Origin: Thalassospiraceae bacterium LMO-SO8
GTDB taxonomy: Bacteria > Pseudomonadota > Alphaproteobacteria > Rhodospirillales > Casp-alpha2
DNA length: 64,000 nucleotides
Reading direction: 5' to 3'
Assembly (NCBI GenBank): GCA_031655335.1
Contig: CP134226.1
Location: forward strand, 620,001 to 684,000
Shown here: one piece after another, positions 2,473 to 21,805 of the stretch
Layout of the letters: the number at the start of each line of letters is the position of its first letter
Position numbering within the stretch: the stretch's first letter is position 1
Notes under the pieces: generated by a model
Told to the model about the DNA's origin: nothing
Database searches by the model: none
What the model saw: only the letters and a program-made list of their open reading frames with translations
Translations under genes and position numbers: made by a program

Positions 2473-3969
2473 ATGTTGGAGTATTTCGCACCTATATCTT
2501 ATTGGGTGGTGACCGTTCTGTGGCTGGTCATCCTCATTCTTTATGTGGTCAAGCTGCGTCAATCCAAGCTGGTGGGCGGCGGCATCGCGGTGTTGCTGGT
2601 CATCCTGTCGATCGACGCCTTCCGCACGGTGCTGGAAAACGTCTATTTCGGCGCCTTCCACAATTCGCGATTGGGCCTGCTGCCGGCAAGCTGGGCCGAA
2701 GTCCTAGGCGATCCATCGTTATTGCTGTTCCCCAAGGGCGTGAACATCGCCGCCGGCGTGTTGGTTCTGGTTCTGCTGATCCGCCACTGGCTGCCTCGGG
2801 AACTGCGCGAAGGCGAGGAACTGCGCCGCAAGGACGCGGTGCTGCGCAGCGTGTTCGACAACGCCGCCGTGGGCATGGTCCTGCACGCGGCCGACGGATC
2901 GACCCGCGAACGCGTCAACGACGCCTTCTGCAACCTTGTCGGATACTCGCAGGCCGAACTGCTGAACAACCCCTACGAGGCCCTGACCCACCCCGACGAC
3001 CTGTTGCACAGCCTGGAACTGCGCCGGCGTCTCGCCGACGGCGAGGTCGAGGTCATCACCATGGAGAAACGCTACCTGCACAAGGACGGGCATGCGGTCT
3101 GGGGCAGTGTGTCGTCGTCGGTCATCCGCGGCGACGACGGCGAGGTTCTCAACTATGTCTCGTTCATCCAGGACATCTCGGCGCGCAAGGCCGCCGAACA
3201 ATCACTGCGCGAGGCGACGGAAAGCGCGATCGAGGCCAACCGCGCGAAATCCCAGTTCCTGGCCACCATGAGCCACGAGTTCCGCACGCCGCTGAACGCG
3301 ATTCTCGGTTTCAGCCAGCTTCTCGGCAACGAGATCTTCGGGCCGCTCGGCGACAAGCGCTACAAGGGATATGCCGACAACATCCGCGATTCCGGCGAAC
3401 TGATGCTGGCGCTCGTCAACGACGTGCTGGATATCTCGACCATCGAGGCGGGCAAGCGGTTGCTGATCATGGAACCGATCAATCTGCGTGTCGTGATCGA
3501 GGACTGCGTGCGCACCTTCGCCACCATGGCCGAGGACAAGGCCATCACCGTCGAGACCGACATCGCACAGGATATCCCGGCGTTGACCGCCGACCGCCGC
3601 GCGGTGGTGCAAATCACCCTCAACCTCCTGTCCAACGCCATCAAGTTCACCGATCCCGGCGGCCGCGTCACCGTGAACGTGACACGGATCGGCGACACTC
3701 TGTCACTCATGGTCGAGGACACGGGAGTCGGCATTCCGGAAGGCGCGCTTGCGACGGTCACCGAACCCTTCACCCGCAGCCATTCCAACCCGCACCTGTC
3801 ACAGACGGGCACCGGGCTGGGCCTGTCCATCGTCAAATCCCTGACCGAGGCCCATGACGGCACATTGACCATCGACAGCACGCCGGGCGAAGGGACCCTG
3901 GTCACCGCGCGGTTTCCGCTGCATCCGGGCGGCGGCGATCAGCCGCCGTTGCGCGCCGTTTCGGCCTGA
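2473..3969 (+). CDS. PAS-domain membrane sensor histidine kinase
   Basis: This 498-residue kinase has about three N-terminal hydrophobic segments (roughly residues 8-28, 36-50 and 88-106), a PAS/PAC region (about 125-240), a HisKA domain with H268 in SHEFRTPLNA, and a complete ATPase domain (NLLSNAIKFT, DTGVGIP, GTGLGLS). The PAS region contains the typical closing segment followed by DISARKAAEQ. No receiver domain or adjacent response regulator was seen. The central HisKA-ATPase part resembles that of the kinase just upstream, so the two may be paralogues feeding a shared regulator elsewhere. A purine-rich AGGGGG lies too far from the ATG at 2473 to be an optimal ribosome binding site, so the exact start is moderately certain. 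Confidence 0.9.
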   Translation: MLEYFAPISYWVVTVLWLVILILYVVKLRQSKLVGGGIAVLLVILSIDAFRTVLENVYFGAFHNSRLGLLPASWAEVLGDPSLLLFPKGVNIAAGVLVLVLLIRHWLPRELREGEELRRKDAVLRSVFDNAAVGMVLHAADGSTRERVNDAFCNLVGYSQAELLNNPYEALTHPDDLLHSLELRRRLADGEVEVITMEKRYLHKDGHAVWGSVSSSVIRGDDGEVLNYVSFIQDISARKAAEQSLREATESAIEANRAKSQFLATMSHEFRTPLNAILGFSQLLGNEIFGPLGDKRYKGYADNIRDSGELMLALVNDVLDISTIEAGKRLLIMEPINLRVVIEDCVRTFATMAEDKAITVETDIAQDIPALTADRRAVVQITLNLLSNAIKFTDPGGRVTVNVTRIGDTLSLMVEDTGVGIPEGALATVTEPFTRSHSNPHLSQTGTGLGLSIVKSLTEAHDGTLTIDSTPGEGTLVTARFPLHPGGGDQPPLRAVSA

Positions 3970-4071: not shown

Positions 4072-4962
4072 ATGGCCAAGATCAACATCCAATTCACCCT
4101 GTTCTCGGCGTTCTATTCGCCGCTCATTTCCACCATGTCCGGCGGCTTCCTCAAGGCCGAGGGCCTTGAGCCGAACTGGTCCGTGTCGCCGCCGGGCAAG
4201 TCGGCGATCGACGCCCTGCTCGACGGCTCCGCCGATGTGGTGCAATCGGCGCTGTCCCAAGGCTTCACGACGCTCGGCAAGGGCGAGACGCCCAAGGTCA
4301 AGCATTTCGCCCAGATCAACGAAATGGACGGCTTCTTCGTCACCGGGCGCGCGGCCGATCCCGATTTCACCTGGAAAAAGCTCGAAGGGGCCGACCTCGT
4401 CTGTTTCGGCGGCGGACAGCCGCGCGCCATGTTCATGTACGCCTGTCACAAGGCCGGCATCGATTTTTCCAAGATCAATCTGATCACCCCCGGGGGTGCG
4501 GCCGACATCGACAAGGCCTTCCGCGACGGCCTCGGCGACTATGTGCAGCAACAAGGCCCGTTCCCGCAGCAGTTGGAAAAGGACGGCGTCGGCCATGTCG
4601 TCGCCCAGGTCGGCCCGCAGATCGGCCCCAACGGCTTCTCCAGCCTGTGCGCCACGCCAGAATGGCTGGCGACGGACATGGCCAAGGCCTTCATGCGCGC
4701 CTACAAGAAAACCCGCGTCTACATGAACGAGACCCCGGCCATCGAGATCGCCAAGGCGGAAAGCTCTTATTTCCCCGAGATCGACGAAGACGTTCTGGCC
4801 GACTGCATCGCGACCTATCAGAAACTCGGATGCTGGACACCCCATGTCGAAATCACCAAGGAAGCCTACGCGGTGACCCAGGACGTGTTCGAACACTTCG
4901 GCACCCTGAAGGAACGCTATCCCTACGAGGCGGTGTGCTGCCTGCCGCCCGAGACCGATTGA
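4072..4962 (+). CDS. NMT1/THI5-like substrate-binding protein without signal peptide
   Basis: The 296-residue protein has the fold signature of NMT1/SsuA-type periplasmic binding proteins. An N-terminal lobe opens with FSAFYSPLISTMSGGFLKAEGL, followed by a segment on a small number of gene copies or residues typical of the family (DALLDGSADVVQSALSQGF). Unlike transporter-associated members it has no hydrophobic signal peptide; the start at 4072 is fixed by GGGGGAGA just upstream, and the mature fold begins within a few residues. No permease or ATPase gene is adjacent. It may act in the cytoplasm as an enzyme-like or sensory member of the family, or be exported by an unrecognised route. A glutathione transferase gene follows after 43 bases. 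The ligand cannot be read from the sequence. Confidence 0.75.
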   Translation: MAKINIQFTLFSAFYSPLISTMSGGFLKAEGLEPNWSVSPPGKSAIDALLDGSADVVQSALSQGFTTLGKGETPKVKHFAQINEMDGFFVTGRAADPDFTWKKLEGADLVCFGGGQPRAMFMYACHKAGIDFSKINLITPGGAADIDKAFRDGLGDYVQQQGPFPQQLEKDGVGHVVAQVGPQIGPNGFSSLCATPEWLATDMAKAFMRAYKKTRVYMNETPAIEIAKAESSYFPEIDEDVLADCIATYQKLGCWTPHVEITKEAYAVTQDVFEHFGTLKERYPYEAVCCLPPETD

Positions 4963-5005
4963 GGATAGCCGCCGAACCACGCAACCAGGGCCGGGAGACG
5001 ACGCC

Positions 5006-5707
5006 ATGCCGGAAACATTCCACCTGATCAGCGCCGTCACCTGCCCCTGGGTGCAGCGGGCCGTCATCATGCTGCGCGCCAAGGGCGTGGATTTCGACGT
5101 CACCTACGTGAACCTGCGCGACAAGCCGGACTGGTTCCTGGAGCTCTCGCCTCACGGTAAGGTGCCGGTGCTGAAGGTCGACGGCGAGGTTCTGTTCGAA
5201 TCCAACGCCATCGCCGAATACCTGGACGAGGTGTTCGAACCCCGCCTGCACCCGGCAGACCCCGTCAAGCGGGCCAAGAACCGGGCCTGGACCGACTTCC
5301 TGCCGACCTTCGCCTGGGGCCCCGGGCTGAACAACCTGTCCTATTGCGAGTCCAAGGACGCCCTGGCCGGGGCGCTGGAAACAGCGCGCCAGCGGGTCGC
5401 CCGCCTGGAAGCCGCCATCGCCAAGGAACGCGGCAACGACGGCCCCTATTTCAACGGTCCCGACATGTGCCTGGTCGACGCCGCCTACGCCCCCTTCTTC
5501 CAGCGTTTCATGCTGTGCGAGGAACACCTGAAGACCGGGCTGCTGGACGATTTCCCCCTGGTCGCCGCTTGGGTCGATGCATTGCTCGCGACCGACGCCG
5601 TGACCGGGTCGGTTCCGCCGGAGTTTCCCCAAGCCTTCGACGAAAACCTGGAACGCCGGGGGGCGTTGGCCTGGGGGTTGAAGACAGAGGCCCGGGCGGC
5701 GGAGTAA
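5006..5707 (+). CDS. Glutathione S-transferase family protein, omega-like
   Basis: This 233-residue protein has a thioredoxin-fold N-terminal domain (about 1-85) and an all-helical C-terminal domain. The active-site motif CPWVQR (C13) matches the cysteine-type omega/glutathionyl-hydroquinone-like classes, which do thiol transfer or reductive deglutathionylation rather than classic conjugation. The glutathione-binding elements KVPVL and ESNAIAEYL are present. The ATG at 5006 follows CGGGAGA. It may share a transcript with the binding protein upstream. It is convergent with the minus-strand gene ending at 5719, only 11 bases away. The substrate is unknown. Confidence 0.88.
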   Translation: MPETFHLISAVTCPWVQRAVIMLRAKGVDFDVTYVNLRDKPDWFLELSPHGKVPVLKVDGEVLFESNAIAEYLDEVFEPRLHPADPVKRAKNRAWTDFLPTFAWGPGLNNLSYCESKDALAGALETARQRVARLEAAIAKERGNDGPYFNGPDMCLVDAAYAPFFQRFMLCEEHLKTGLLDDFPLVAAWVDALLATDAVTGSVPPEFPQAFDENLERRGALAWGLKTEARAAE

Positions 5708-5718
5708 GCGGCCGCCTT

Positions 5719-6402
5719 TTAGGGCCGCAGGCAGGTGTTCATCTGCCGCGTCATCGGCGGATTGCATTCCCAATCGTTGCCGGTACGGTCGAGGTGCGCG
5801 TTTTGCGGCACCTGGACTTCGGCGCAGGCGCCGTTCTCAAGGCGGTATCCGCGCTCGCACTTCCAGCCTTCGCCGTAGGACGTATCGACGAAATAGGCGT
5901 TGTTCGGAACCTTGACGGCGACACAGACGCCGTCGGACTCGCGGTATCCCCGCTCACACTCCCATCCGGCACCGTGGCTGACGTTGGTCAGGTAGCCGTT
6001 CTTGGGCACCTTGATCTCGACACAAGCTTCGCCGTCGCGGCGGTAGGTCCGCGCGCACTCCCAGGTGTCGCCATAGGCGCTGAGGAAGGCATGGGGCGGA
6101 ATCACGACCGCGACGCAGGTTTCGCCCTTTTCCCTATAACCGCGCAGGCATTCCCAACCCCGGCCGTAGGACACGTTGGTCATGAAGGCGTTGTCCGGCA
6201 CCGATACGGCAGCGCAGGCGCCGTCGATCTTGCGGAAGCCCTCGTCGCATTCCCAACCCCGGCCCAGGCCGTCGCCGTGGGCGTTGGCCGGAAGAGGGGC
6301 GGCAACCGTCTGAGCCGACAATGGCGCAGGGGCGGCAAACCAGGCCGCGAGAACGATCAAGACAAGGGCACAGGACCGCAGGGCGGGCATAACAGGCAAC
6401 AT
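5719..6402 (-). CDS. Secreted cysteine-repeat protein, function unknown
   Basis: The 227-residue product begins with a clear signal peptide (hydrophobic core about residues 10-30, cleavage probably after LSA near residue 30). It then consists almost wholly of tandem units of about 34-38 residues. Each unit has a WEC motif, GY/F-R, a second cysteine, and a V-P-x-N/H-A-linker ending in a glycine-rich turn. Five near-complete units and a terminal WEC...C half unit are visible, giving two cysteines per unit, presumably disulfide-bonded outside the cytoplasm. I do not recognise a named domain; the arrangement recalls EGF-like modules only in general form. It lies 47 bases downstream of the protease gene on the same strand and may be co-transcribed. 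Confidence 0.8.
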   Translation of the reverse strand: MLPVMPALRSCALVLIVLAAWFAAPAPLSAQTVAAPLPANAHGDGLGRGWECDEGFRKIDGACAAVSVPDNAFMTNVSYGRGWECLRGYREKGETCVAVVIPPHAFLSAYGDTWECARTYRRDGEACVEIKVPKNGYLTNVSHGAGWECERGYRESDGVCVAVKVPNNAYFVDTSYGEGWKCERGYRLENGACAEVQVPQNAHLDRTGNDWECNPPMTRQMNTCLRP

Positions 6403-9337: not shown

Positions 9338-10185
<848 letters not shown>

Positions 10186-10189
<4 letters not shown>

Positions 10190-11004
10190 GACCACCAGAC
10201 GGCCTTTTCCGCGAACACGGCGAACAGCTTGTCGGCAGCGGCCGAGATCACGCCGAGCATGACCAGGCCGCCCATCATCTGACCCATCTGCAGGTTCTGC
10301 TGGGCGATGTCGATGCGGTAGGCCAGGCCCGCGAAGGTCCCGGCCAGTTCGGCCGCGACCAGGGTGTAGAAGGAAATGCTGACCGAGGTGCGCAGCCCGA
10401 CGAAGATATACGGCAGCGCCCCCGGCAGCAGAATTTCGCGCAGCATGCGTTTCTCCGGCGTGCCCAGCACACGGGCCGCGCGGATCAGTTTTTCGTCAAC
10501 CCGCTGCACGCCCAGGTGGGCGGCGATCCACACGGTGAAGAACACGCCCCAGACGACCAGGAAGTACTTGCCGGTTTCGCCCAGCCCGAACCACAGGATC
10601 ACGATGGGCACGAAGGCGATCGGCGGGATCGGGCGAAGCAGTTGGAACACGGGGCTGAGCAGACTGGAAAGCAGCCGGTAGCGGCCGGTCAGGATGCCGA
10701 CCAGGGCGCCCAGAACGGCGCCGACGAAGAAGCCGACGACGACGCGCGACGCGCTCATCCCGAAATCGATCAGAAGCTGGCCGCTTTCGAGCCAGTCCAG
10801 CAGGGCGCCGAGCACCGTCGACGGCGGTGGAAACAGGATCACGTTGACGACGCCGGAGCGCGACACGATCTCCCACAAACCGAAGAACAGCGGCAGCGAG
10901 GCGGCGAGGACGAGGCGGTTGACCGCCTCGCCCTGCCAGAACCTTGCGGCCCGCTTGCTTGCCGGGCCGTCTGCCGCGGCGATATTTTCGACGGGTCCCG
11001 GCAT
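10186..11004 (-). CDS. ABC transporter permease, NitT/TauT (SsuC) type
   Basis: This 272-residue permease has about six membrane segments and the inner-membrane binding-protein-dependent transport motif (AARVLGTPEKRMLREILLPGALP region) that docks to the ATPase. Its N-terminus is short and cytoplasmic. It is separated by one base from the upstream binding protein gene and overlaps the ATPase gene by four bases, a typical tight operon. Function follows from the gene set: import of the ligand captured by the binding protein at 11006. Confidence 0.92.
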
Positions 11005-11005
11005 C

Positions 11006-11989
11006 TTAGGGGATCGTCACCCGGTCGGGGGCGACGGCCTTCAGCGGGCCGGGCACGATGACCGTGGAGAAATCGGGCATGGTGGCACCCGGCGGGTGGT
11101 TGCCGGATTCGAGCCGCCAGGCGGCATGAGCGGTCAGCACGTCCAACTGCTTCTGGTCGAGGACGACGTTATAGACGTAGTCCTTCCAGATGGCGGCCAG
11201 GGCGTCGGCCTTCATGCCCGCGACCTTGGCGACCGTCGCGATGGCTTCTTCCGGGTTCGCCTTCATCCAGGCCTCGGCCTCGAGCAGCGCCTTGAGGAAG
11301 GCGGAAATCAGCTCGGGGTTGTCCTTCAGGTAGGATTTCATCACGACGATGTTGAAGGTTTCCGCGTAGATGCCCTTGGTATCCAGTTCGGCGACCTTCG
11401 CCCCCATGGCCTTGACGCCGTTGCTGACGTGCGGCTCCCAGGTGTTGTAGGCGTCGATGTCCCCGGCCGACAACGCCGGCAGCATGTCCTGCGGGCGCAG
11501 GTTGGTCAGCTTCACATCCGATTTGCTGAGCCCCGCCTTCTTGAGCAGCGCGACCGTATAGACCTCGCTGCCGGTGCCGGCGGTGAAGGCGATCTTCTTG
11601 CCCTTGAGGTCGGCCAGGCTTTTGATGCCCGAAGCGGCCGCGGTCAGGGTCTTGAGGTCGGAATATTCCATGCGGGCGAGAAACGCGATGGGCTGCTTCG
11701 ACATGGCGGCGGCGGTGGTCGGCGCCTCGGCCGTGGTCGCGATGTCGGCGGCGCCGCCGAGCACGGCGTTCAGGCACTGCTTGCCCGAGGTGAAGCCGCT
11801 GACGGAAATATCCAGGCCGTGCTTTTCGAAGAACCCCTTGTCCTTGGCGACGATCGTGACGCCGGAAATCGGCGACATGTTCTGCGCCAGGGTCGCCTTG
11901 AACTTCGCGGCCTCCGCGGGCCCGGCGAAAAGCACCGCCGCAAGCGCCGCCGCCAGTCCGCCGGCCTTCAATCTGGAAATCATGGGCAT
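11006..11989 (-). CDS. NMT1/SsuA-type ABC substrate-binding protein
   Basis: The 327-residue precursor begins with a signal peptide (hydrophobic core about residues 8-22, cleavage after AEA). The mature part starts KFKATLAQNMSPISGVTIVAKDKGFFEKHGL, typical of nitrate/sulfonate/hydrocarbon-binding proteins. The start at 11989 is supported by AAGGAG 7-8 bases upstream; a longer frame to 12106 would bury the signal peptide. The gene heads the three-gene transporter operon and is preceded, 145 bases upstream, by a GCAAATATTTGC palindrome (12134-12145). Two neighbouring operons carry the identical palindrome, which links uptake to the nitrile hydratase-like and amidase genes. The ligand cannot be read directly. 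Confidence 0.9.
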   Translation of the reverse strand: MPMISRLKAGGLAAALAAVLFAGPAEAAKFKATLAQNMSPISGVTIVAKDKGFFEKHGLDISVSGFTSGKQCLNAVLGGAADIATTAEAPTTAAAMSKQPIAFLARMEYSDLKTLTAAASGIKSLADLKGKKIAFTAGTGSEVYTVALLKKAGLSKSDVKLTNLRPQDMLPALSAGDIDAYNTWEPHVSNGVKAMGAKVAELDTKGIYAETFNIVVMKSYLKDNPELISAFLKALLEAEAWMKANPEEAIATVAKVAGMKADALAAIWKDYVYNVVLDQKQLDVLTAHAAWRLESGNHPPGATMPDFSTVIVPGPLKAVAPDRVTIP

Positions 11990-12133: not shown

Positions 12134-12145
12134 GCAAATATTTGC
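12134..12145 (-). promoter_or_regulatory. GCAAATATTTGC palindrome, copy 1
   Basis: A perfect 12-base palindrome lies between the end of the nitrile hydratase-like operon (12174) and the start of the ABC transporter binding protein (11989). The same 12 bases occur at 15838-15849 and 16772-16783. The symmetry and size suit a dimeric Crp/Fnr-family regulator, one of which is encoded at 15983-16744 between the other two copies. The assignment of the regulator is inference. Confidence 0.7.
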
Positions 12146-12173: not shown

Positions 12174-12788
12174 TCACGGCGCCCCTGGGACAGTGACGCC
12201 GATCAGGTCATCGCGCGAAACCAGGGCGGCAAGTTCATCGGTTGTCAGGTGAGAGGTGCCCGGCGGCCGCAGCGGCAGCACCATGTAGCGCATGTCGGCC
12301 GTGCTATCCATGACACGGATTTCGGTATTCTCGGGAAGTTCCGTACCGAACTTGCGCAGGATCGCCCTGGGCTCGATGACCATGCGCGACCGATAGGCGA
12401 AGCTTTTATACCACTCCGGCGGCAACCCGAGGACCGCCTTGGGATAGCACGAGCAGAGCGTGCAAACGATGACGTGATGCCGGTCCGGCGTGTTCTCGAC
12501 GACGACGAATTCAGGCCCCTGGGAAATGCGGATGCCCAGTTCGTCGAACACGGCCTGCTTGGCGTCGGTCAGCAGCAGGTCGCGGAACCGATCATCCGTC
12601 CAGGCCCGCGCCGCCAGGCGCGCGCCGAGCATCGGTTGGCGCGTATCGATCTCCCGGCGGACGGCGTCGAGGCGCCCGGCATCGATCAGATCCTTGCGGA
12701 TCAGCAGATTGACGACCGCCTGCATAAGCAGGGCGGACCGGCCCTCCTGCATGATCCGCGCGGTCAATCCGTCCTGCACCGCGTTCAT
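12174..12788 (-). CDS. Cobalt-type nitrile hydratase alpha / thiocyanate hydrolase gamma subunit
   Basis: The 204-residue protein carries the metal-claw motif VCTLCSCYP (cysteines at about 109, 112 and 114). In this family these ligate non-corrin iron or cobalt, and threonine after the first cysteine is the cobalt form. The following LGLPPEWYKSFAYRSR and the C-terminal RVMDSTADMRYMVLPLRP/LIGV segment resemble thiocyanate hydrolase gamma as I recall it, as well as nitrile hydratase alpha. The start at 12788 is preferred because GGAGG lies 7 bases upstream and it overlaps the previous stop in ATGA form. The subunit works with the two split beta-like proteins encoded immediately upstream. Substrate (nitrile, thiocyanate or other cyano compound) is undetermined. 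Confidence 0.85.
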   Translation of the reverse strand: MNAVQDGLTARIMQEGRSALLMQAVVNLLIRKDLIDAGRLDAVRREIDTRQPMLGARLAARAWTDDRFRDLLLTDAKQAVFDELGIRISQGPEFVVVENTPDRHHVIVCTLCSCYPKAVLGLPPEWYKSFAYRSRMVIEPRAILRKFGTELPENTEIRVMDSTADMRYMVLPLRPPGTSHLTTDELAALVSRDDLIGVTVPGAP

Positions 12789-13111
12789 GTCATTTCCTCC
12801 AGCCATTGATCGAATAGATCGGCGACGATCATCGTGTTGCCCGACGGCTCCGAAAGGGCAGGCCCCCAGACCTCGTCATACTCAAACTGGACTTGGTACA
12901 AGCGACAGGCCTCGGGACGTTCCGCGCCGACGGCCAGGGCCGTCGGATCGAGGAAGACGCCGAAATACCGGACCACCCGTCCCCGCTTGCCGCGCAGGTA
13001 ATACGGCGTGCGCACATGCCCTTTGTCCGGAAAGCGCGCGGCAACGCGCACGGCCGCGCCAATATCCAACGGCTTTCCAGGCGGTGCGGCGGTCCCGTCA
13101 GCGCGCGCCAT
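12785..13111 (-). CDS. Nitrile hydratase beta C-terminal-domain protein (thiocyanate hydrolase alpha-like)
   Basis: The 108-residue protein corresponds to only the C-terminal SH3-like half of nitrile hydratase beta. It has a GAAVRVAARFP segment, TPYYLRGKRGRVVRYFGVFLDP, YQVQFEYDEVWG and a closing LFDQWLEEM. In thiocyanate hydrolase this half is a separate alpha subunit. The preferred ATG at 13111 overlaps the upstream gene by 14 bases; an ATG at 13141 would give 118 residues, but that extension reads the upstream gene in another frame. Its stop overlaps the gamma-like gene start, indicating translational coupling. The gene order (beta-like, alpha-like, gamma-like) equals scnB-scnA-scnC. Confidence 0.8.
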   Translation of the reverse strand: MARADGTAAPPGKPLDIGAAVRVAARFPDKGHVRTPYYLRGKRGRVVRYFGVFLDPTALAVGAERPEACRLYQVQFEYDEVWGPALSEPSGNTMIVADLFDQWLEEMT

Positions 13112-13439
13112 CGCCGATCCCGTCCGCTTCCAGCCGCGCAATCTCGCGCGAAATCTCGTCCTCGTCCAACATCCCCTTTTCGATAAGGATGTTGGTTACG
13201 CCGAACAGCCAGCGTTCATAATAGGTTGCGTCGAAGTAAATCTCCGGCGGCAGTTCCTCGATGCCCCGCCGCCGCTCGTCGGGACGGACAAGGCCGGTTT
13301 CCTTGAGGGCGAGCAGATTGACCAGGGCGTCGACATCCTTGTCGAAATCCGACGGCGCATGTTCGGAGACGAAGAACTCGCCATGATCCTGGCCACCCAG
13401 GTCGTGCATGGCCCGGTGGTGGGAATGATCATGCTCCAC
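13098..13439 (-). CDS. Nitrile hydratase beta N-terminal-domain protein (thiocyanate hydrolase beta-like)
   Basis: The 113-residue protein matches the N-terminal helical half of nitrile hydratase beta: MHDLGGQDHG, then a helical region, LPPEIYFDATYYERWLFGVTNILIEKGML, which follows the conserved Y-x-x-WL-x-x-x-x-x-L(I/V)EKG pattern. A histidine-rich start (MEHDHSHHRAMHD) could bind metal. It starts 16 bases after the ModC gene, so mod and scn-like genes are probably co-transcribed. It could instead be a beta-homologous activator protein of the family, but the complementary C-terminal half immediately downstream favours a split beta subunit. Confidence 0.8.
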   Translation of the reverse strand: MEHDHSHHRAMHDLGGQDHGEFFVSEHAPSDFDKDVDALVNLLALKETGLVRPDERRRGIEELPPEIYFDATYYERWLFGVTNILIEKGMLDEDEISREIARLEADGIGDGAR

Positions 13440-13455
13440 GGCGCGTCTCCTTCAT

Positions 13456-14145
13456 CTATACGGCTTCTTTCATGGTCGCCGTCTTGAGGACCGGAAGAAT
13501 TTCATCGACGTGACCGAATGCGGTGACGACGCCGTTCTTCATCACGACCACGTTGTTGGCCAGGCGCTCCACCTCCTGGGTCGAGTGCGTGACGTAGACG
13601 ATCGGCGTGTAGAATTCGTCCCGGATGCGCTTGATGAAGGGGATGATCTCCTCCTTGCGCAATTCGTCGAGGGCCGAGAGCGGCTCATCCATCAACAGAA
13701 GGTCCGGATTGGTCAACAGCGCCCGGCCGATCGCCACGCGCTGTTTTTCGCCGCCGGACAGGTGGTGGGGCCGGCGCTTGAGGAGATGCCCCACGCCGAG
13801 AAGCTCGACCACCTCGTCAAAGACGATCTGGCCGCCCTCGCGGTACCCGTAGCGCAGGTTGCCCGTCACGGTCAGGTGGGGAAACAGGCGGCTTTCCTGG
13901 AAGATGTAGCCCATCCGCCGCTCATAGGGCGGCACGGAGATTCTTTTTTCGGAATCGAACAGGACGCGGTCATGGATCTTGATGAAGCCCTTGTCGGGCC
14001 GCATCATTCCGGACAACAGATTGATGACGCTTGTTTTTCCGGAGCCGGAGGGACCGAAGAACACGGTCACCCCGCTGTTGGGAAGCTCGACGTCGACCTT
14101 GAGATGAATGCCGCCGAGAACCTTGTCGAGGATGATGGAAATCAT
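13456..14145 (-). CDS. modC: Molybdate-type ABC transporter ATPase, short form
   Basis: The 229-residue ATPase contains GPSGSGKTS (Walker A), LSGGEKQR (signature), [12 protein letters not shown] (Walker B) and VTHSTQEVE (H-loop). It shows a ModC-type arrangement, including the [17 protein letters not shown] segment. Classical ModC is about 350 residues with a C-terminal molybdate-binding MOP/TOBE domain, which is absent here; the protein ends soon after the AFGHVDEIL segment. Start M at 14145 is supported by the ModC-like beginning; a longer frame to 14403 is a shadow of modB. It follows ModB after 10 bases and precedes the split nitrile hydratase genes after 16 bases. Confidence 0.85.
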
Positions 14146-14155
14146 GTCGTGTCCG

Positions 14156-14845
14156 CTACCCGTTGAGGATTTTGGCAAGCCGCTTGTTGAGGAATTCCGC
14201 GCCGACCAGCGCCACCATGGCCAGGACCAGGGAAATCGCGACCAGCCGCCCGGCCATGGCGTCGCCGTCCGGTTGCTGGACCAGGTTGTAGATGGCGATG
14301 GGGATGGTCCGGGTTTCACCTGGGATGTTGGAGACGAAGGTGACGGTCGCCCCGAATTCACCCAGACAGCGGGCGTAGGCCAGGATGCAGCCGGCGAGGA
14401 CACCGGGCAGAATCAACGGCAGGGTGATCGTGAAGAACACGCGAAACGGCCGGGCCCCCAGGGTATAGGCGGCGGCCTCCAGCTTGCGGTCCATGGCTTC
14501 GTAGCTGAGCCGGATGGTCCGCACCATCAACGGAAAGGACACCACCGCCGCCGCCAACGCCGCGCCGCGCCAGGAGAACACGAAGGTGATCCCGAACCAT
14601 TCCTTGAGCGGGGCGCCCAGGAAACCGTTGGAGCCGAAGGACACAAGCAGAAGATAGCCCATGACCACCGGCGGCAGGACCAACGGCAGGTGGATGATGC
14701 CGTTCAGAACGTTCTTGCCGATGAATTCCTTGCGCGCCAGTAGCCAGGACACGGGAAGGGCCAGCGGCAGGCAGACGAGAACCGCCCATAACGAGACCTT
14801 CAAGCTCAGATAGATGGCTTCGCTTTCAACGTCTGTCAGTTCCAT
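14156..14845 (-). CDS. modB: Molybdate ABC transporter permease
   Basis: This 229-residue permease has five or six membrane segments and the ModB-type loop [36 protein letters not shown], followed by [21 protein letters not shown], typical of molybdate permeases. Predicted function is passage of molybdate (or a related oxyanion) delivered by the ModA-like protein. It lies 63 bases downstream of modA and 10 bases upstream of modC on the same strand. The transporter operon is probably controlled by the palindrome at 15838-15849. Confidence 0.9.
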
Positions 14846-14908
14846 ACCGCAGGCCCTTTCCCGTTTCTTTGGTCATCGTTCATGGCCGCCATTGGACGGG
14901 GCCCGTGC

Positions 14909-15688
14909 CTATTCCATGATCGGCTTGAAGCCGTACTTCGAAAAGGCGGCCTTGGCCGGCGCGGTCTTGAGGAACGCATAGAACTTCGCAACGTCCGGGT
15001 TGCTTGAGGTTTTGACCTGAGCAATCGGATAGGTGATCGGACCATGGGATTCCTGGGGGAAATCGCCGACGATCTCGACCTTGTCGCTGACCAGGCCCGA
15101 GGTCTTGAAAACGATCCCCGCGCCGACTTCGCCGCGTTCGACCATGGTCAGGCCCGCGCGCACGCTGGGCGCCATGGCCAGGGTCGGCTCGACCTCTTCC
15201 CAGATGCCCAGGTACTTGGCGGCGTCCTTGAAGTAGAGCCCGACCGCCGTGTGGTCCGTGTCGCCCACGGCCATGCGCTTGCCCTTCAGCGCGTCCTTCA
15301 GCTTCATGCCTTTCTCGATCTTGATCATCGGGAAATCCGAGCCCTTGGGTTTGACCAGGGACAGCGAATTGGCGACCACGGGGACGCGGGTCTCGCTTTT
15401 GATGAATCCGGCCTTCTCGAGCCTGTCCATCCACTTGTTGTCGGCCGAAAGAAAGATATCCGCCGGCGCGCCGTTCTCGATCTGCTTGGCCAGGGTCGAG
15501 GTGGCGCCGAACGATACCCGGATCTCGCCGCCGCTTTTCTTGTAGGCGGCGATGATTTCCTTCATGGCGTTGGTCGTGCTGACGGCGGAAAAAATCGTGA
15601 GAACGTCGGCCCGGGCCGCGCCGACCGTGCCCGCGACGATGGCCAGAGCCAGGATTCCCTTGTTCAGGGTGGTGATAAAGCTGCGCAT
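14909..15688 (-). CDS. modA: Molybdate-binding periplasmic protein
   Basis: The 259-residue precursor has a signal peptide (about residues 1-26, cleavage after ARA). The mature sequence follows ModA closely: SAVSTTNAMKEI, SFGATSTLAKQIENGAPADIFLSADNKWMD, AVGDTDHTAVG and a C-terminal KYGFKP. The ATG at 15688 follows TGGAGG; a longer frame to 15883 exists but adds no domain. It starts a mod operon whose promoter region carries the second copy of the GCAAATATTTGC palindrome 150 bases upstream. The unusual feature is its co-location with nitrile hydratase-like genes downstream rather than with molybdoenzymes, so the true oxyanion could differ. Confidence 0.9.
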   Translation of the reverse strand: MRSFITTLNKGILALAIVAGTVGAARADVLTIFSAVSTTNAMKEIIAAYKKSGGEIRVSFGATSTLAKQIENGAPADIFLSADNKWMDRLEKAGFIKSETRVPVVANSLSLVKPKGSDFPMIKIEKGMKLKDALKGKRMAVGDTDHTAVGLYFKDAAKYLGIWEEVEPTLAMAPSVRAGLTMVERGEVGAGIVFKTSGLVSDKVEIVGDFPQESHGPITYPIAQVKTSSNPDVAKFYAFLKTAPAKAAFSKYGFKPIME

Positions 15689-15835: not shown

Positions 15836-15851
15836 ACGCAAATATTTGCGT
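15836..15851. promoter_or_regulatory. GCAAATATTTGC palindrome, copy 2 (extended)
   Basis: The core 12 bases (15838-15849) are embedded in a perfect 16-base palindrome, ACGCAAATATTTGCGT, the longest of the three copies. It lies in the divergent region between modA (15688) and the Crp/Fnr gene (15983), 150 and 133 bases from the two starts. It may control one or both of these genes. Confidence 0.7.
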
Positions 15852-15982: not shown

Positions 15983-16744
15983 ATGACCCCCGACGAAACG
16001 CCGCCGACATACGATCTTGCCGACCGCGCCCCGGAAGCGTCGTTGAGCGCCGTCCTGCGCCTGACCGAGGACGGCCTGCCCGTCGACAGCGGCCCGAACA
16101 TTCTCGAACTGCTGACGCCGGCGGAACTGGACCGCCTGGTCGGCGCCGGCCGCGAGACCGCATACAAGGCGGGCGACTATTTTTTTCAGCAGGGCGACGC
16201 CCACGACGGCATCCATTTCATCCGCGCCGGGCGGGTGCGCTCCTATTACACCTCGCCCAGCGGCCGCGAGATCACCCTGGCCTACTGGCCCAAGGGCCAT
16301 TTCGTCGGCGCCCCCCAGATACTGGGCGGCGGCGAACACATGTGGTCGTCGGTCGCGGTCGAGGCATCGGTCGGCCTGTGGCTGCCGGGCATGGTGCTGC
16401 GCGGCCTGATCCGCGACACCCCCAACCTGGCGATCGCCCTGATCGAAGGCCTGACCTACAAAAGCATGTGCTACACGGCCCTGTTGCAGATCATGGGCAC
16501 GCAGTCGAAGACCAGCCGCCTCGGTCACCTGCTGTTGACCCTGGCCGCCCCCGCGGTGGACGGCGGCAACGGCGCCCACCTGCATCAGCATTTCACGCAG
16601 GAGGAACTGGCCAACCTGATCGGCTCGACCCGGCAGTCGATTTCGACCTCCCTCGACAAGTTCGAGAAGAAACGCCTGATCGACCGCCGCGGCGACGCCA
16701 TCCGCATCATCGACGTCCAGGGCCTGCGCGCCCTCTGCGACTGA
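15983..16744 (+). CDS. Crp/Fnr-family transcriptional regulator
   Basis: The 253-residue protein has an extended N-terminal tail, a cyclic-nucleotide-binding-type beta barrel (about residues 50-165, including AGDYFFQQGDAHDGIHFIRAGRVR), a long dimerisation helix and a C-terminal winged helix with FTQEELANLIGSTRQSISTSLDKF as the recognition region. No cysteine cluster for an iron-sulfur or haem cofactor of classic FNR type is evident. It sits between two copies of the GCAAATATTTGC palindrome, which flank its gene, and is thus the natural candidate to bind them. Effector unknown. Confidence 0.88.
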   Translation: MTPDETPPTYDLADRAPEASLSAVLRLTEDGLPVDSGPNILELLTPAELDRLVGAGRETAYKAGDYFFQQGDAHDGIHFIRAGRVRSYYTSPSGREITLAYWPKGHFVGAPQILGGGEHMWSSVAVEASVGLWLPGMVLRGLIRDTPNLAIALIEGLTYKSMCYTALLQIMGTQSKTSRLGHLLLTLAAPAVDGGNGAHLHQHFTQEELANLIGSTRQSISTSLDKFEKKRLIDRRGDAIRIIDVQGLRALCD

Positions 16745-16771: not shown

Positions 16772-16783
16772 GCAAATATTTGC
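16772..16783 (+). promoter_or_regulatory. GCAAATATTTGC palindrome, copy 3
   Basis: The third identical 12-base palindrome lies in the 149-base gap between the Crp/Fnr gene (ends 16744) and the amidase gene (starts 16894), 110 bases before the amidase start. The flanks do not extend the symmetry. Confidence 0.7.
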
Positions 16784-16893: not shown

Positions 16894-18297
16894 ATGACCC
16901 CACTGACCATCACCCTAGAGTTCACGGCCCTCCGGGCGGCCTACGCCGCGGGCGACGTCACGCCCGTCGACGTCGCGGCCCATGTCCTCGGCACGATTGA
17001 GGCACGCGGCGATGACGGCGTGTGGATTTACAAGGTGCCCGGCGAAACCGTCCTGGCCCGCGCCAGCGCGCTGGCCGCCCTGCCGCCGGCCGACCGGGCG
17101 GCCCTGCCGCTTTACGGCATCCCGTTCAGCGTCAAGGACTGCATCGACATCGCCGGCCTGCCGACGACCTCGGCCTGCCCGGCCTATGCCTATACGGCAG
17201 AGCGCACCAATCTGGCCGTGCAGCGCGCGCTGGACGCCGGCGCCGTCCTGATCGGCAAGACCAACATGGACCAGTTCGCGACCGGCGTGGTCGGCGTGCG
17301 CACGCCCTACGGCGTCGCCCGCAATCCGTTCGACGCCGACTACATCCCGGGCGGCTCCAGCTCCGGCGCCGCCGTCTCCGTGTCGTCCGGGCTGTGCGGC
17401 TTCGCCTTCGGCTCCGACACCGGCGGCTCGGGCCGCGTGCCCGCCAGCTACAACAACGTGGTCGGGCTCAAGCCGACATTGGGCCTGTTTCCGCGCACCG
17501 CCATGGTCAACGCCAGCCCGTCGTTCGACACGGTCTCGGTCTATGCCCTGACGGCGGCCGACGCGCTCCGCGTGCTGGAAACCTGCCAGGCCGTCGACCC
17601 GGACGACGTCTACGGCCGCGCGGCCCCTGCCCAGCCCCCCGTGCAGGACGCGGGCGTGCCGCTCCGCATCGCGGTGCCGGGCAAGGCCAGCCGCACCTTC
17701 TTCGGCAATGCCGAGGCCGAAGCCCTGTTCGACCGGGGCCTGGCCGAACTCACCGCCATGGGCCACGCCCTGACCGAGATCGATTTCGACGTGTTCTTCG
17801 AGACCAGCCGCATGATGTTCGAAGGCCCCTGGATCGCCGAACGGGACGCCATGGTCGGCGACTTCATCCGCGCCAATCCGGACGCCGCCGACCCCGTCGT
17901 CCGCCAGGTCATCACCGCGGCCGGGCGCTATACGGCGGCCGAGGCGTTCCAGGCCATGTACCGCCTGCACCGCAACGCCCGCGAAATCCGCCGCACCTTC
18001 GACGACGCCGACCTGATCGCCGTGCCCACGGTCGGCACCGTCTACACGGTGGCCCAGGTCATGGCCGACCCGATCCCGACCAACGCCAGCAACGGCTATT
18101 ACCTGAACTTTGCCTCCATGGCCGACCTCGCCGCCATCGCCGTGCCCAACGGCTTCCTGCCGTCGGGCCTGCCCATGGGCATGACCTTCGTCGGCCCCGC
18201 GTTCAGCGACCCGTTCCTCGCGGCCTTCGCCGACGGCTTCCACCGGCGGCGAGTCGACACCCTGGGCGCCACGGGGCAGGCCTTTCCCGGAGCGTGA
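16894..18297 (+). CDS. Amidase-signature hydrolase, allophanate hydrolase-like
   Basis: The 467-residue protein has the full Ser-cisSer-Lys triad of the amidase-signature family: K81 in PFSVKDCIDIAGLPTT, S155 in PGGSSSGAAV and S179 in DTGGSGRVP. Similarity to the AtzF/allophanate hydrolase amidase domain is suggested by LYGIPFSVKD, TSACPAYAYT, GKTNMDQFATGVVGVRTPYG and the FALTAADAL-like segment. Classical AtzF is about 600 residues and has an additional C-terminal decarboxylating domain, which is absent. It probably hydrolyses an amide to acid and ammonia. It is preceded by the third GCAAATATTTGC palindrome, linking it to the nitrile hydratase-like genes, for which it would be the second step. 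Confidence 0.85.
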   Translation: MTPLTITLEFTALRAAYAAGDVTPVDVAAHVLGTIEARGDDGVWIYKVPGETVLARASALAALPPADRAALPLYGIPFSVKDCIDIAGLPTTSACPAYAYTAERTNLAVQRALDAGAVLIGKTNMDQFATGVVGVRTPYGVARNPFDADYIPGGSSSGAAVSVSSGLCGFAFGSDTGGSGRVPASYNNVVGLKPTLGLFPRTAMVNASPSFDTVSVYALTAADALRVLETCQAVDPDDVYGRAAPAQPPVQDAGVPLRIAVPGKASRTFFGNAEAEALFDRGLAELTAMGHALTEIDFDVFFETSRMMFEGPWIAERDAMVGDFIRANPDAADPVVRQVITAAGRYTAAEAFQAMYRLHRNAREIRRTFDDADLIAVPTVGTVYTVAQVMADPIPTNASNGYYLNFASMADLAAIAVPNGFLPSGLPMGMTFVGPAFSDPFLAAFADGFHRRRVDTLGATGQAFPGA

Positions 18298-18379: not shown

Positions 18380-21300
18380 TTACTTCAGCGGCCAGCCACC
18401 ATGATCGTCAATAACGGCGTCAATATCCGCCATCAACTTAATTGTGCGAGCCAATGCAGAAACGATACTTTGGTAATGCTGCTGATCATCAAATGACAAT
18501 TCACGCCCCATGCGATCCTTCAGCCATTTATGACAGACTTGGTATCCGCCAACATGGAAATCCCAAACAGCCTGTGGAATACCTTCAAAATACTGGGCCT
18601 TGTTGATCCAAACCCGTGCCGGTTGCCTGCCCTTAGCCGTAGTAAACTGAACCTGATCTACCACATGATCGCCTTCAGCAGGATATGATGTAACCGACTT
18701 AATTTTGTTCCCCATCAAATGGAGATCGATCAGTTCTTCTCCGAAATTACAAAGCGCGCGGAATAACTTGACGTCACGGGTCAACGGCAAGCGAGGAAAA
18801 TCAATCTCCAGAAAATCAGCATATCGCCGTCTGTATTCAGGACTGTGAAGAACCGCGTACACGTATGCGGCGACATTTTCAGGTCCAAAAGTTTTTTTCA
18901 GATCAGTACGACCATCGACGATCCAATCAAGACCTGTTTTGCTAATAATTTTCGAAATAAACCGCACAGTGAAATTAGGTTTTCTTCCGCCAGGACTATC
19001 TGAATCACCATCCGGAAGATCAAAAAGATCCTCCTTTTCGTCCTTCGGATAGAGATACGTAGGGAAATATTGGATGCCACCACGCCGAAAAAGATTGGTA
19101 TTCGCAACATGCTGGCCAACGGTGACAAGATTCCATGTGTCATCCCCAACGGCCAGCCCTTGCCGGCCCACCGCAATACAATAATTTTCATGCAAAGCAT
19201 GACGGCCGGTTTCAAATCGAGGCCAATCCATCATTACTGAATCGTAATATGTGTAGCGTTGATCAAGTGGCTGGTATAGGCAAGGAACTATACGATCTTG
19301 GATACTTTTCTTATTTCTTAATTTTTGCAATGCATCAGAAAAATTCCAATCCCTAGTATCTGGGAGTTTGTATATTTCCCTCAAATCTCTCAAAGAAACG
19401 TTGGCAGTCCGAAGAGAATTTATACGGTCATGAATTTCCTGCTCCGTGAAAGCGACAGCAAAATGATCTCGGTGCGTCTTGAAGCCGTTCGTGCTGACCT
19501 CGTAAATGTCTAAAACACTATCAAGCCCCATGTATTCTGGATAAAGCGTACCATCCATTGGTTTAAAAAGGTACCATTCACTCTCAGGATTTACTTTATT
19601 CCATTTTGTATTTGATACATTGTGTTTGTATAGCCAATCGTACTTACCTCCCATGGGGATTTGCTTTTCACCGATCCAAGAGACACCATCGCGTGACCCC
19701 CAAAGCTCGGCATGCTTTACAGAAGTAGTTTTGTCAGATTTTCCGTTCTTCTTTTTTACAAATATTCCAATGCTGACACCTTGCTGGATATCAAACACAT
19801 TTTTATCTGCCGAGCCGTCGGGCGCTTTCTCTTTTTTCTTTGTATTTCCGTGCAGGTCGAGGACGTAAATGTCGTCAAACGTGGACATCAAGCTCTGACG
19901 CATACCTCGGAATGTTGGATTGTCGAGGTAACCGTGATTCGTGATGAACGCCAGTATACCGTGGCCGGTTTGTTCGATGCGCCATTGAGAAAATCGAATG
20001 AATTTCACATAGTCGTCGTTTAGGTATTTCGGGTTCCGCTCCCTAAGTTTTTGCCCGTCAACCTCAAAGTAATTTTCGGTCTTTGATCCCGTGATGATGT
20101 CCTCGCCACGCACCAATTTGTGAATCCACGGCCCATTATTGGCCGAATGACCGGAATAAGGTGGATTACCCAATACCACCATCACGGGGTGGTCCTGCTT
20201 GGCTTCGCCAGCTTCAAACGCCTCCCGAGCAATTTCCCCAGCAAACAACGGCAAACCTGTCATTTCGTGCGCTTCCTGCAACGAATTGGTCAGATAAACC
20301 CGCAAACGCTCATTAGCTTTGAAGTCATACCCCATGTCTGCCAACTGTAGGCCGAGCTTCATGTGGCATACGGCATAGGGCGCCATCAGCAGTTCAAACC
20401 CAAAAATGCGCGGGAGTAGATGTTGAGAGACGTAACTGCTCCAACTTCCGGTTTGCCCGGTCGACTCAATATGCGCACGTATCATTCGGATGACTTCATG
20501 CAGGAAGGTGCCGGTACCAGTGGCCGGGTCCAAGATCGTGACCTTGTGCGCCTCTTTCTTTCCGCCGGTCAGCGTTTTTGGGACTTTGACCTTGCTGTAG
20601 TCAGCTAAACCATCGGCGATTTTGAAGTCGCGCTTCAAAATCTCATCAACGCTTTTCACGATATAGCTGACGACAGGCTCCGGCGTGTAATAGACGCCGC
20701 GCCTTTCTCGCATTGCCGGATCGTATTCCGCCAGGAAGGTTTCGTAAAAATGGACCACGGGATCTTCGCGCCGTGTCCGGCGCCCGAAATCCTTCAAAAT
20801 ACTTTTGATATCGGTTCGTTCCAGGAGCTCGACCAAATCATCGACAATCCAGGTGACACGCTCGTCGAGGCCCGGTCCGGCGATATGATCAAAAATCTTG
20901 CGCAGAAAAGGATTGGTCTTGGGCAGTTCATGCGCCGCCTTGTAGCGGGAAAAAGGCTCTTTTCCTTTATGGTTACACCGCGCGGCAAAAAGCCCATAAC
21001 AGATCGTCTGCGCATACATATCGGCGAAGTCGTCTTCGCTCAAATCGTCAATTAGTACTGCGCGAAAACCTTTCAACTGGTTGTGTAATTCACCGCCTTT
21101 ATCCTCAGCCTTGAACGCCAAGCGAATGCTGTCGCGCATCAGGCGGGCCAGTCCTCCCATTCGTTCGGCAAGGTTCGAAGCCGATGAAATCGTTTTGATT
21201 TTTGTCTTGAGGAATTCAGAGATAAGGTTGTGAACTTCATCGCCCCCGTCGCCGCTATTTCTGTCAAGGGTTGCCGTCATTCGGTGTTCGCCGAAAACGT

Positions 21301-21640
21301 ACCAGCGGAATTCCAGGTAGTCCGTGAGGATTAGGTTGGGCAGACCTTCTAAGTAACGCTTTAACTGATCCGTTTTTTCGACAACGTCCAAATCCTTGCC
21401 CACATCCTTAGCCTCGATATGGCCAAGTGGGATGGAATTCGCCGTGACTACATAATCCGGGGCGCCACAAGCCTCCTGCTTGGGCTCATTGGTGGCAACC
21501 ACCGTCATCTTGTTCGAAGATGCAACTGCTTCAATCAGAGTTTTTAAGGCGGGGCGGTGTGTGTGTTCCGTTGCCGTGCCAGCCTTCAAGGCACTGTTGA
21601 TTGCGGAAAGGTAAGCCGAGATTGCCTTGTCGCCCGCCAT
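18380..21640 (-). CDS. Type ISP/IIG-like restriction-modification enzyme
   Basis: This single polypeptide of 1086 residues combines a nuclease and an adenine methyltransferase. Near residues 62-78, a PD...E-A-K arrangement (D62 in GAPDY, E76 and K78 in HIEAKDVG) fits the PD-(D/E)XK nuclease type. The methyltransferase motif LDPATGTGTFLHEV is near residue 370 and NPPYSGHS near 490. The C-terminal third is the presumed target-recognition part. Compared with translocating type ISP enzymes of about 1500 residues it lacks a helicase block. Start at 21640 is supported by GGGGAG upstream. The gene is clearly AT-richer than its neighbours and uses different codons, consistent with horizontal acquisition. 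No separate methyltransferase or immunity gene is adjacent. Confidence 0.88.
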   Translation of the reverse strand: MAGDKAISAYLSAINSALKAGTATEHTHRPALKTLIEAVASSNKMTVVATNEPKQEACGAPDYVVTANSIPLGHIEAKDVGKDLDVVEKTDQLKRYLEGLPNLILTDYLEFRWYVFGEHRMTATLDRNSGDGGDEVHNLISEFLKTKIKTISSASNLAERMGGLARLMRDSIRLAFKAEDKGGELHNQLKGFRAVLIDDLSEDDFADMYAQTICYGLFAARCNHKGKEPFSRYKAAHELPKTNPFLRKIFDHIAGPGLDERVTWIVDDLVELLERTDIKSILKDFGRRTRREDPVVHFYETFLAEYDPAMRERRGVYYTPEPVVSYIVKSVDEILKRDFKIADGLADYSKVKVPKTLTGGKKEAHKVTILDPATGTGTFLHEVIRMIRAHIESTGQTGSWSSYVSQHLLPRIFGFELLMAPYAVCHMKLGLQLADMGYDFKANERLRVYLTNSLQEAHEMTGLPLFAGEIAREAFEAGEAKQDHPVMVVLGNPPYSGHSANNGPWIHKLVRGEDIITGSKTENYFEVDGQKLRERNPKYLNDDYVKFIRFSQWRIEQTGHGILAFITNHGYLDNPTFRGMRQSLMSTFDDIYVLDLHGNTKKKEKAPDGSADKNVFDIQQGVSIGIFVKKKNGKSDKTTSVKHAELWGSRDGVSWIGEKQIPMGGKYDWLYKHNVSNTKWNKVNPESEWYLFKPMDGTLYPEYMGLDSVLDIYEVSTNGFKTHRDHFAVAFTEQEIHDRINSLRTANVSLRDLREIYKLPDTRDWNFSDALQKLRNKKSIQDRIVPCLYQPLDQRYTYYDSVMMDWPRFETGRHALHENYCIAVGRQGLAVGDDTWNLVTVGQHVANTNLFRRGGIQYFPTYLYPKDEKEDLFDLPDGDSDSPGGRKPNFTVRFISKIISKTGLDWIVDGRTDLKKTFGPENVAAYVYAVLHSPEYRRRYADFLEIDFPRLPLTRDVKLFRALCNFGEELIDLHLMGNKIKSVTSYPAEGDHVVDQVQFTTAKGRQPARVWINKAQYFEGIPQAVWDFHVGGYQVCHKWLKDRMGRELSFDDQQHYQSIVSALARTIKLMADIDAVIDDHGGWPLK

Positions 21641-21805
21641 GTGCGCTCCCCACATCAACATGCATTATCACGATTTCTTTGTAGACGAATCAAATCAGTC
21701 CCGGAACTTCTATAATTCCAAAACGTGTGAAACTAAAAGCCCAACACGCGCGATGGCCAACCCGGCCATCCCCATCGCGCTTGAGAATTCCGCTGCCATG
21801 CCGCC

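Follow-up and report, generated by a model that had tools for sequence, protein, structure and literature searches.

We analysed a window of 64,000 nucleotides from Thalassospiraceae bacterium LMO-SO8 (contig CP134226.1, positions 620,001 to 684,000 of the forward strand; genome G000, 3.98 Mb), in which the genes of a ModABC-type importer are followed on the minus strand by those of a nitrile hydratase (NHase) with its beta subunit split in two. An earlier, sequence-only reading had described this block as a modABC-scnBAC operon. The module is larger than that: it includes a CRP/FNR-family regulator, a short AtzF-like amidase, an importer of the SsuABC type and three copies of a palindrome. 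Importer and split hydratase travel together as an addition, not as a housekeeping NHase. We tentatively read the module as a regulated pathway that takes up a small anionic nitrile and hydrolyses it as a nitrogen source, a reading that we place a little short of probable.

Importer and split hydratase

The six genes of the central block are listed below in window coordinates.

14909-15688, minus strand: ModA-type binding protein (TIGR01256, 172.2 bits; Phe194 at the place of E. coli Tyr170)
14156-14845, minus strand: ModB-type permease (NF006939, 349.3 bits; TIGR02141, 244 bits, passed)
13456-14145, minus strand: ModC-type ATPase, 229 residues (TIGR02142, 312.6 bits; no TOBE hit)
13098-13439, minus strand: N-terminal half of NHase beta (betaN, ScnB-like; PF21006 NHase_beta_N, 58.4 bits; GTG start)
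12785-13141, minus strand: C-terminal half of NHase beta (betaC, ScnA-like; PF02211 NHase_beta_C, 59.5 bits; TTG start, in-frame ATG at 13111)
12174-12806, minus strand: alpha-like (gamma-like) hydratase subunit (PF02979 NHase_alpha, 245.2 bits; claw CTLCSC, then Tyr-Pro-Lys)

Order and coordinates are as the sequence-only reading had them, with modA, modB and modC separated by 16 bases (13455-13440) from betaN, and with betaN overlapping betaC and betaC overlapping alpha. This spacing fits one transcription unit, and it is on spacing that the transcriptional fusion proposed there rests. Its assignment of the two small proteins to the halves of NHase beta, and of the claw to the third, also stands. 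The claw reads IVCTLCSC, so that the alpha has both the C(T/S)LCSC motif and the PF02979 domain (cut-off 27.2 bits) of NHase alpha subunits. One Arg conserved in NHase alignments is found in each beta half, within DE.R of betaN and GH.R.P.Y.RG of betaC; we take both to contact the metal centre. The single-chain beta of two-subunit NHases is absent, the halves being two genes in different frames. The sequence-only reading had raised the possibility of an ordinary NHase broken by a frameshift. A frameshift or chance origin of the split is ruled out because the halves occupy different frames and overlap at their ends, and because two other genomes (G435/L103 and L104/L105) show the same split in the same order.

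The order betaN-betaC-alpha fits the scnB-scnA-scnC plan, which we take to be the beta-alpha-gamma gene order of known thiocyanate hydrolase, and betaN and betaC weakly resemble chains B and A of that enzyme in 2dd4 (E 3.9e-4 and 0.011). Thus the plan claimed in the sequence-only reading held, while membership of the thiocyanate hydrolase family was not supported. With TIGR03887, the curated model of thiocyanate hydrolase gamma, the window alpha scores 162.3 bits against a cut-off of 291.45 (no genome among the 398 of the phylum sample passes it), and in the PDB it is matched better by NHase alpha (189 bits) than by 2dd4_C (139 bits). Like ScnABC, the window enzyme has three subunits, a split beta, a Cys claw and apparently a basic residue after Cys-Tyr-Pro; unlike it, the residue is Lys rather than Arg and the genes stand with an amidase and an importer. 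Cobalt NHases (3qxe, 1ire) are the closest by sequence and share PF02979 and the conserved Arg motif of each beta half, but in the window alpha is preceded by a split beta, Lys replaces Trp by the claw, and the NHase alpha model TIGR01323 gives 236.0 bits, just under its cut-off of 249.85.

As the sequence-only reading had noted, the cluster holds no hydratase activator gene. An activator-like protein (NHase_beta_N, 44.8 bits) is encoded elsewhere in the genome beside an ordinary unsplit NHase, at a locus (G000:C1:3554061-3557606) that consists of alpha, with Trp after its claw, beta and the activator-like gene; this activator could also serve the split enzyme.

The modABC-betaN-betaC-alpha block is kept in two further Rhodospirillaceae genomes. 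The synteny that the sequence-only reading proposed to look for is therefore real, and the coupling of modABC to a hydratase was found in three genomes only. A scan of named genomes with the alpha query, which reaches close relatives only, returned four loci. The first, L103 (uncultured Rhodospirillaceae), is probably the same contig as G435:C23 and carries the amidase (67% identical to that of the window), the regulator (82%), ModA, ModB and ModC (88, 95 and 82%), betaN (78%), betaC (61%) and alpha (71%). The exact palindrome GCAAATATTTGC is present at all three matching places in L103 and in L142, the corresponding stretch of G435. The second and third, L104 and L105, are two contigs of isolate SAT126 with the same alpha; there modABC-betaN-betaC-alpha is accompanied by a convergent AtzF-like amidase, with neither a regulator nearby nor an exact GCAAATATTTGC, and a 44% relative of the regulator is encoded elsewhere in the SAT126 genome. 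L106 has a split hydratase without the module. In L105 an amidase gene best matched by malonamidase E2 (4811-6100, minus strand; 242 bits) adjoins the module, beside a second amidase and another importer of the ATP-binding cassette (ABC) type.

Searches of larger genome sets gave the same picture. At E 1e-30 the alpha was matched in 94 of the 317 genomes of the order search and ModA in 191 of 314, with close matches only in G435 (72% for alpha, 88% for ModA); the next best by score were 56 and 46% identical, respectively. In the genus sample of eight genomes, the window's own included, a close alpha and a ModA at this E value are both present in two and both absent from six, whereas an ordinary unsplit NHase of the Trp type is present in all eight; this is why we regard the module as an addition. 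G434, one of the six members without the module, has another split hydratase.

A clade of split hydratases

To place the window enzyme, we compared 107 hydratase relatives with a readable claw, after removal of near-copies and of rows without a claw. Most were chosen because they best matched the subunits of the window enzyme, which biases the set towards the split type. The residue after Cys-Tyr-Pro of the claw, Lys in the window where Trp is usual, was Arg, Lys or Val in 77 relatives, Trp in 29 and Phe in one. In all 67 Arg/Lys/Val rows for which both beta halves were found, the halves are unfused and a half precedes alpha. Eight of the remaining ten show one half, before alpha; L062 shows none, and L214 shows one half after alpha, its record also annotating an SH3-like protein directly before alpha. 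Both halves were found in 21 Trp rows; alpha comes first in 20 of them, and the 11 to which the in-frame test was applied are fused in one frame. In a tree of 108 alphas, the window's included, built with this residue masked, the Arg/Lys/Val group (78 rows with the window) forms one side of a single branch with support 100/99, and the window, L103 and L104 form a group of their own with support 100/100; the bootstrap was not fully settled. In the set compared, the split beta and the change from Trp to Arg/Lys/Val go with one large clade, and the split form is not special to thiocyanate hydrolase.

The position after the claw probably corresponds to residue 136 of thiocyanate hydrolase gamma, an equivalence derived from the scores of two 38-residue PDB queries. 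Against 2dd4_C the query scored 45.0 bits with Arg and 41.8 with Trp; against 3vyg_C it scored 41.0 and 47.2, respectively. For the NHase entry 3vyh_A, whose printed alignment has Arg there, the score fell from 55.9 bits with Arg to 52.4 with Trp. From these scores, 3vyg and 3vyh seem to be a deposited reciprocal swap at the gamma-136 position. As placed by them, Lys of the window alpha is basic without being the Arg of thiocyanate hydrolase.

Two split hydratases of the Arg/Lys/Val group precede genes of the biuret pathway. In G434, of the same genus, an ABC ATPase gene at the beginning of the contig is followed by betaN, betaC, alpha, BiuH and AtzF (L240, 377-5258), where BiuH (413.8 bits, cut-off 370) and AtzF (741.7 bits, TIGR02713 cut-off 511.05) both pass their curated models. 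In G057, of another family, the order is SsuCAB-betaN-betaC-alpha-BiuH-AtzF (L244, 6369-13144, minus strand). G298 has an importer and a split hydratase without BiuH. BiuH converts biuret to allophanate (PMC5806882). We predict that the L240 and L244 operons encode the conversion of a nitrile to ammonia by way of biuret; because the hydratase stands directly before BiuH, its product would be biuret, which suggests cyanourea as its substrate. None of the papers listed by a literature search contained the word cyanourea, which does not show that none exist. The window genome differs in that no BiuH was found in it at E 1e-60 and in that it has a short-type amidase.

The neighbours of other split hydratases are varied. 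In plasmid records of Rhizobium, Agrobacterium, Microvirga and Streptomyces (L211, L213, L214, L215), the split genes are followed by an aquaporin (seen by tblastn only in L214) and by metal transporters of the CbtAB or HoxN type. Such neighbours were found in none of the split regions fetched from genomes, where CbtAB stands beside unsplit hydratase genes. Five annotated plasmid records label the split-hydratase alphas as NHase alpha.

Regulator, palindromes, amidase and second importer

The remaining features of the module flank the central block.

9338-10195, minus strand: SsuB/TauB-type ABC ATPase (PF00005, 123.4 bits; 45% identity with the pMRAD01 SsuB)
10186-11004, minus strand: SsuC-type ABC permease (PF00528, 85.1 bits)
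11006-11983, minus strand: SsuA-family substrate-binding protein (TIGR01728, 164.0 bits, cut-off 163.5; NMT1, 117.3 bits)
12134-12145: palindrome GCAAATATTTGC, putative operator, upstream of the SsuA gene (L142 counterpart at 70, downstream of alpha)
15838-15849: palindrome GCAAATATTTGC, putative operator, in the divergent modA/regulator promoter region (L142 counterpart at 3884)
15983-16744, plus strand: CRP/FNR-family regulator, divergent from modA (HTH_Crp_2, 61.8 bits; cNMP_binding, 51.3 bits)
16772-16783: palindrome GCAAATATTTGC, putative operator, upstream of the amidase gene (L142 counterpart at 4820)
16894-18297, plus strand: short AtzF-like amidase, 467 residues (NF006043, 520.7 bits, above its cut-off of 487; TIGR02713, 490.5 bits, below its cut-off)

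The SsuABC-type importer (11983-9338) lies downstream of alpha in the same direction. The whole 3.98 Mb genome has three exact copies of the 12-base GCAAATATTTGC, all within the module, and allowing one mismatch adds one more site. A simple base-composition model predicts about 0.04 exact copies, and the probability of at least three is about 1e-5. With two mismatches allowed, 17 of 100 shuffles also reach three matches in the 64 kb window, so that this number is unremarkable; the palindrome evidence draws its weight from the copies that match exactly and from where they stand. Near related regulators, GCAAN4TTGC was found once in Cupriavidus, twice in Rhizobium, three times in Bradyrhizobium and not in Methylobacterium, counts that were equalled in 37, 8, 1 and 100 of 100 simulations, respectively; for G435 none of 100 did so. 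Because these comparisons differ between genera, support for an operator type shared among related regulators is mixed. A paralogue of the regulator (40%) is encoded at G000:C1:1090000-1109500 (L242) together with a flavoprotein and an NrtA-like importer, an arrangement resembling that on Rhizobium and Bradyrhizobium plasmids.

The best PDB matches of the amidase are the allophanate hydrolases 4gyr and 4cp8. Like AtzF, it has the Lys/Ser motifs of the amidase signature and the Arg of GPWxAER. It differs in ending before the C-terminal domain, so that only the amidase domain is present, in the Phe that replaces Tyr in the GPW motif and in the Gly that replaces Ala in DT(G/A)GSG (DTGGSG). These three traits are common to the proteins of the window, L103, L104 and a Methylobacterium radiotolerans plasmid, and are not found in the five full-length AtzF rows aligned. 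A further difference from the AtzF setting is that no urea carboxylase in the genome exceeds the cut-off, which removes that supply of allophanate; there are two partial matches, spanning about residues 1-440 of 1201, which resemble ordinary biotin carboxylases. On the Methylobacterium radiotolerans plasmid pMRAD01 (L219, 6995-13455), the gene of a 44%-identical regulator is followed by those of an M20 peptidase, of an importer of the SsuABC type and of a short AtzF-like amidase. The regulator, the importer and the short amidase therefore co-occur there without the hydratase. On the far side of the window amidase, a Type ISP/IIG restriction-methylase gene adjoins the module (18380-21661, minus strand; Type_ISP_C 286.5 bits, PADLOC 928 bits) in a stretch of low GC content (0.50).

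Function of the module

In the pathway that we propose, the ModABC-derived importer, and perhaps the SsuABC-type one too, would take in the anion. The three-subunit, presumably cobalt-type hydratase, with its Lys for Trp by the claw, would then hydrate the C-N triple bond to an amide or a ureide, and the short AtzF-like amidase would split this product into ammonia and an acid. The CRP-type regulator, acting on GCAAATATTTGC at three promoters, would switch the units together. A small anionic nitrile fits because the active-site residue is basic, the importer is of an anion type and the amidase is of the allophanate type; the suggestion in the sequence-only reading of a cyano substrate used as nitrogen source was a reasonable guess. 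By analogy, an N-cyano compound that hydrates to biuret or allophanate (cyanourea, N-cyanocarbamate) may be the likeliest type of substrate, since some related hydratases are linked to BiuH and AtzF. N-cyano-urea compounds are acidic, which would fit the basic residue, the anion importer and the allophanate-type amidase alike. The fuller proposal, that three-subunit cobalt-type hydratases specialised for anionic N-cyano compounds feed a biuret/allophanate pathway and that a molybdate transporter has here been re-tuned (Tyr to Phe) for import of the anion under a CRP-type regulator of its own, strikes us as unlikely.

Several observations weigh against this pathway or parts of it. Of 55 split hydratases, only 3 have an AtzF-like gene within 8 kb, and two of these are copies of the module; no Pfam family is common to more than 4 of 41 operon neighbours. 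Split hydratases thus have no fixed partner, and the neighbour survey yielded no general one. BiuH was found in 19 of 170 genomes (E 1e-60), with a split hydratase within 1.5 kb in G057 only. The window clade and the clade of the BiuH operons are about 1.9 changes per site apart, so that the substrate need not be common to both. No palindrome-like site lies upstream of modA in L105, and the one degenerate site before the amidase in L104 is equalled in 33 of 100 simulations. The remaining points concern the importer and bear on its cargo.

Every protein of the window importer passes at least one molybdate-family cut-off: TIGR01256 (62.5 bits), TIGR02141, NF006939 (262) and TIGR02142 (285.05). 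A true molybdate transporter that shares its operon with a nitrile enzyme, either through a molybdenum enzyme of the same pathway or through operon drift, is accordingly a minority possibility that deserves serious weight. The stricter models are missed in the window, NF007958 by ModA (248.4 against 253 bits) and NF008355 by ModC (303.4 against 434). On the other hand, the L105 ModA, which also has Phe, passes NF007958 at 258.8 bits, and that of L103 falls just short at 249.1; the L105 result shifts the odds slightly from an anionic nitrile towards molybdate. Among the matches listed, plasmid-borne annotated ModAs are 40-46% identical to the window ModA, and solved ModAs match it at up to 199.8 bits. 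In L103 a gene that reads as MoaA-like (1190-2188), about 2.3 kb from the amidase, could hint at molybdenum.

Other features speak against molybdate. At the position of E. coli ModA Tyr170, which we take to be a ligand residue under that numbering, all three module copies have Phe. In a comparison of the 30 best matches with loci and the window, the 28 ModAs of this type from outside the module have Tyr, as do the four solved proteins aligned. The comparison spans these 28 next-best ModAs only, and the second ModA encoded in the genome (28% identical, of a different type) has Ala at the aligned place. A second modABC near G000:C1:2,289,000 passes TIGR01256 (219.6 bits), TIGR02141 (249.7) and TIGR02142 (410.5), and its ModC, of 370 residues, carries a TOBE domain; a Pfam scan found none in the window ModC, although a ModC lacking TOBE may still serve molybdate. 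Finally, importer and hydratase occur in the same two of the eight genus members, and no molybdenum enzyme was seen within the module. A literature search found no published link between modABC and a hydratase; among the papers listed, only a whole-genome paper (PMC3596284) contains both 'nitrile hydratase' and 'molybdate transport'.

Three further alternatives were weighed. Import of thiocyanate, itself an anion, by ModABC and its hydrolysis to carbonyl sulfide and ammonia would agree with the three-part plan and with a basic residue at the probable gamma-136 position. We consider it clearly unlikely, given the TIGR03887 score and the better match to NHase chains than to 2dd4_C; it would also leave the conserved amidase unexplained, because thiocyanate hydrolysis yields no amide. 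Cyanoacetate or a similar cyano-carboxylate could be hydrated to malonamate, the carbon analogue of allophanate, from which the amidase would release malonate and ammonia. The three module amidases keep the GPWxAER-type Arg common to AtzF, presumably for binding a carboxylate, and the malonamidase-E2-like amidase adjoins the module in L105. We nevertheless find this substrate quite improbable: the module showed no malonate genes, allophanate hydrolases are the best PDB matches of the amidase, and we know of no natural source of cyanoacetate. An NHase with an amidase is the textbook nitrile pathway, and among PDB chains the alpha comes closest to those of NHase alpha, which could make the module an ordinary broad-range pair with meaningless neighbours. 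That the block is kept in three genomes, that a palindrome with three sites is confined to the module and that the Trp is changed throughout the clade makes this very improbable indeed.

The group of split hydratases with a changed metal-side residue may act beyond the common nitriles, and its operons hint at biuret in two genomes. If the substrate of the window enzyme is an N-cyano compound, the module would point to a nitrogen source that has gone unrecognised and is served by an importer, an enzyme and a regulator of its own; the importer would be a case of a molybdate transporter that has switched cargo. The module is possibly a new route by which small, negatively charged cyano compounds are used as nitrogen food.

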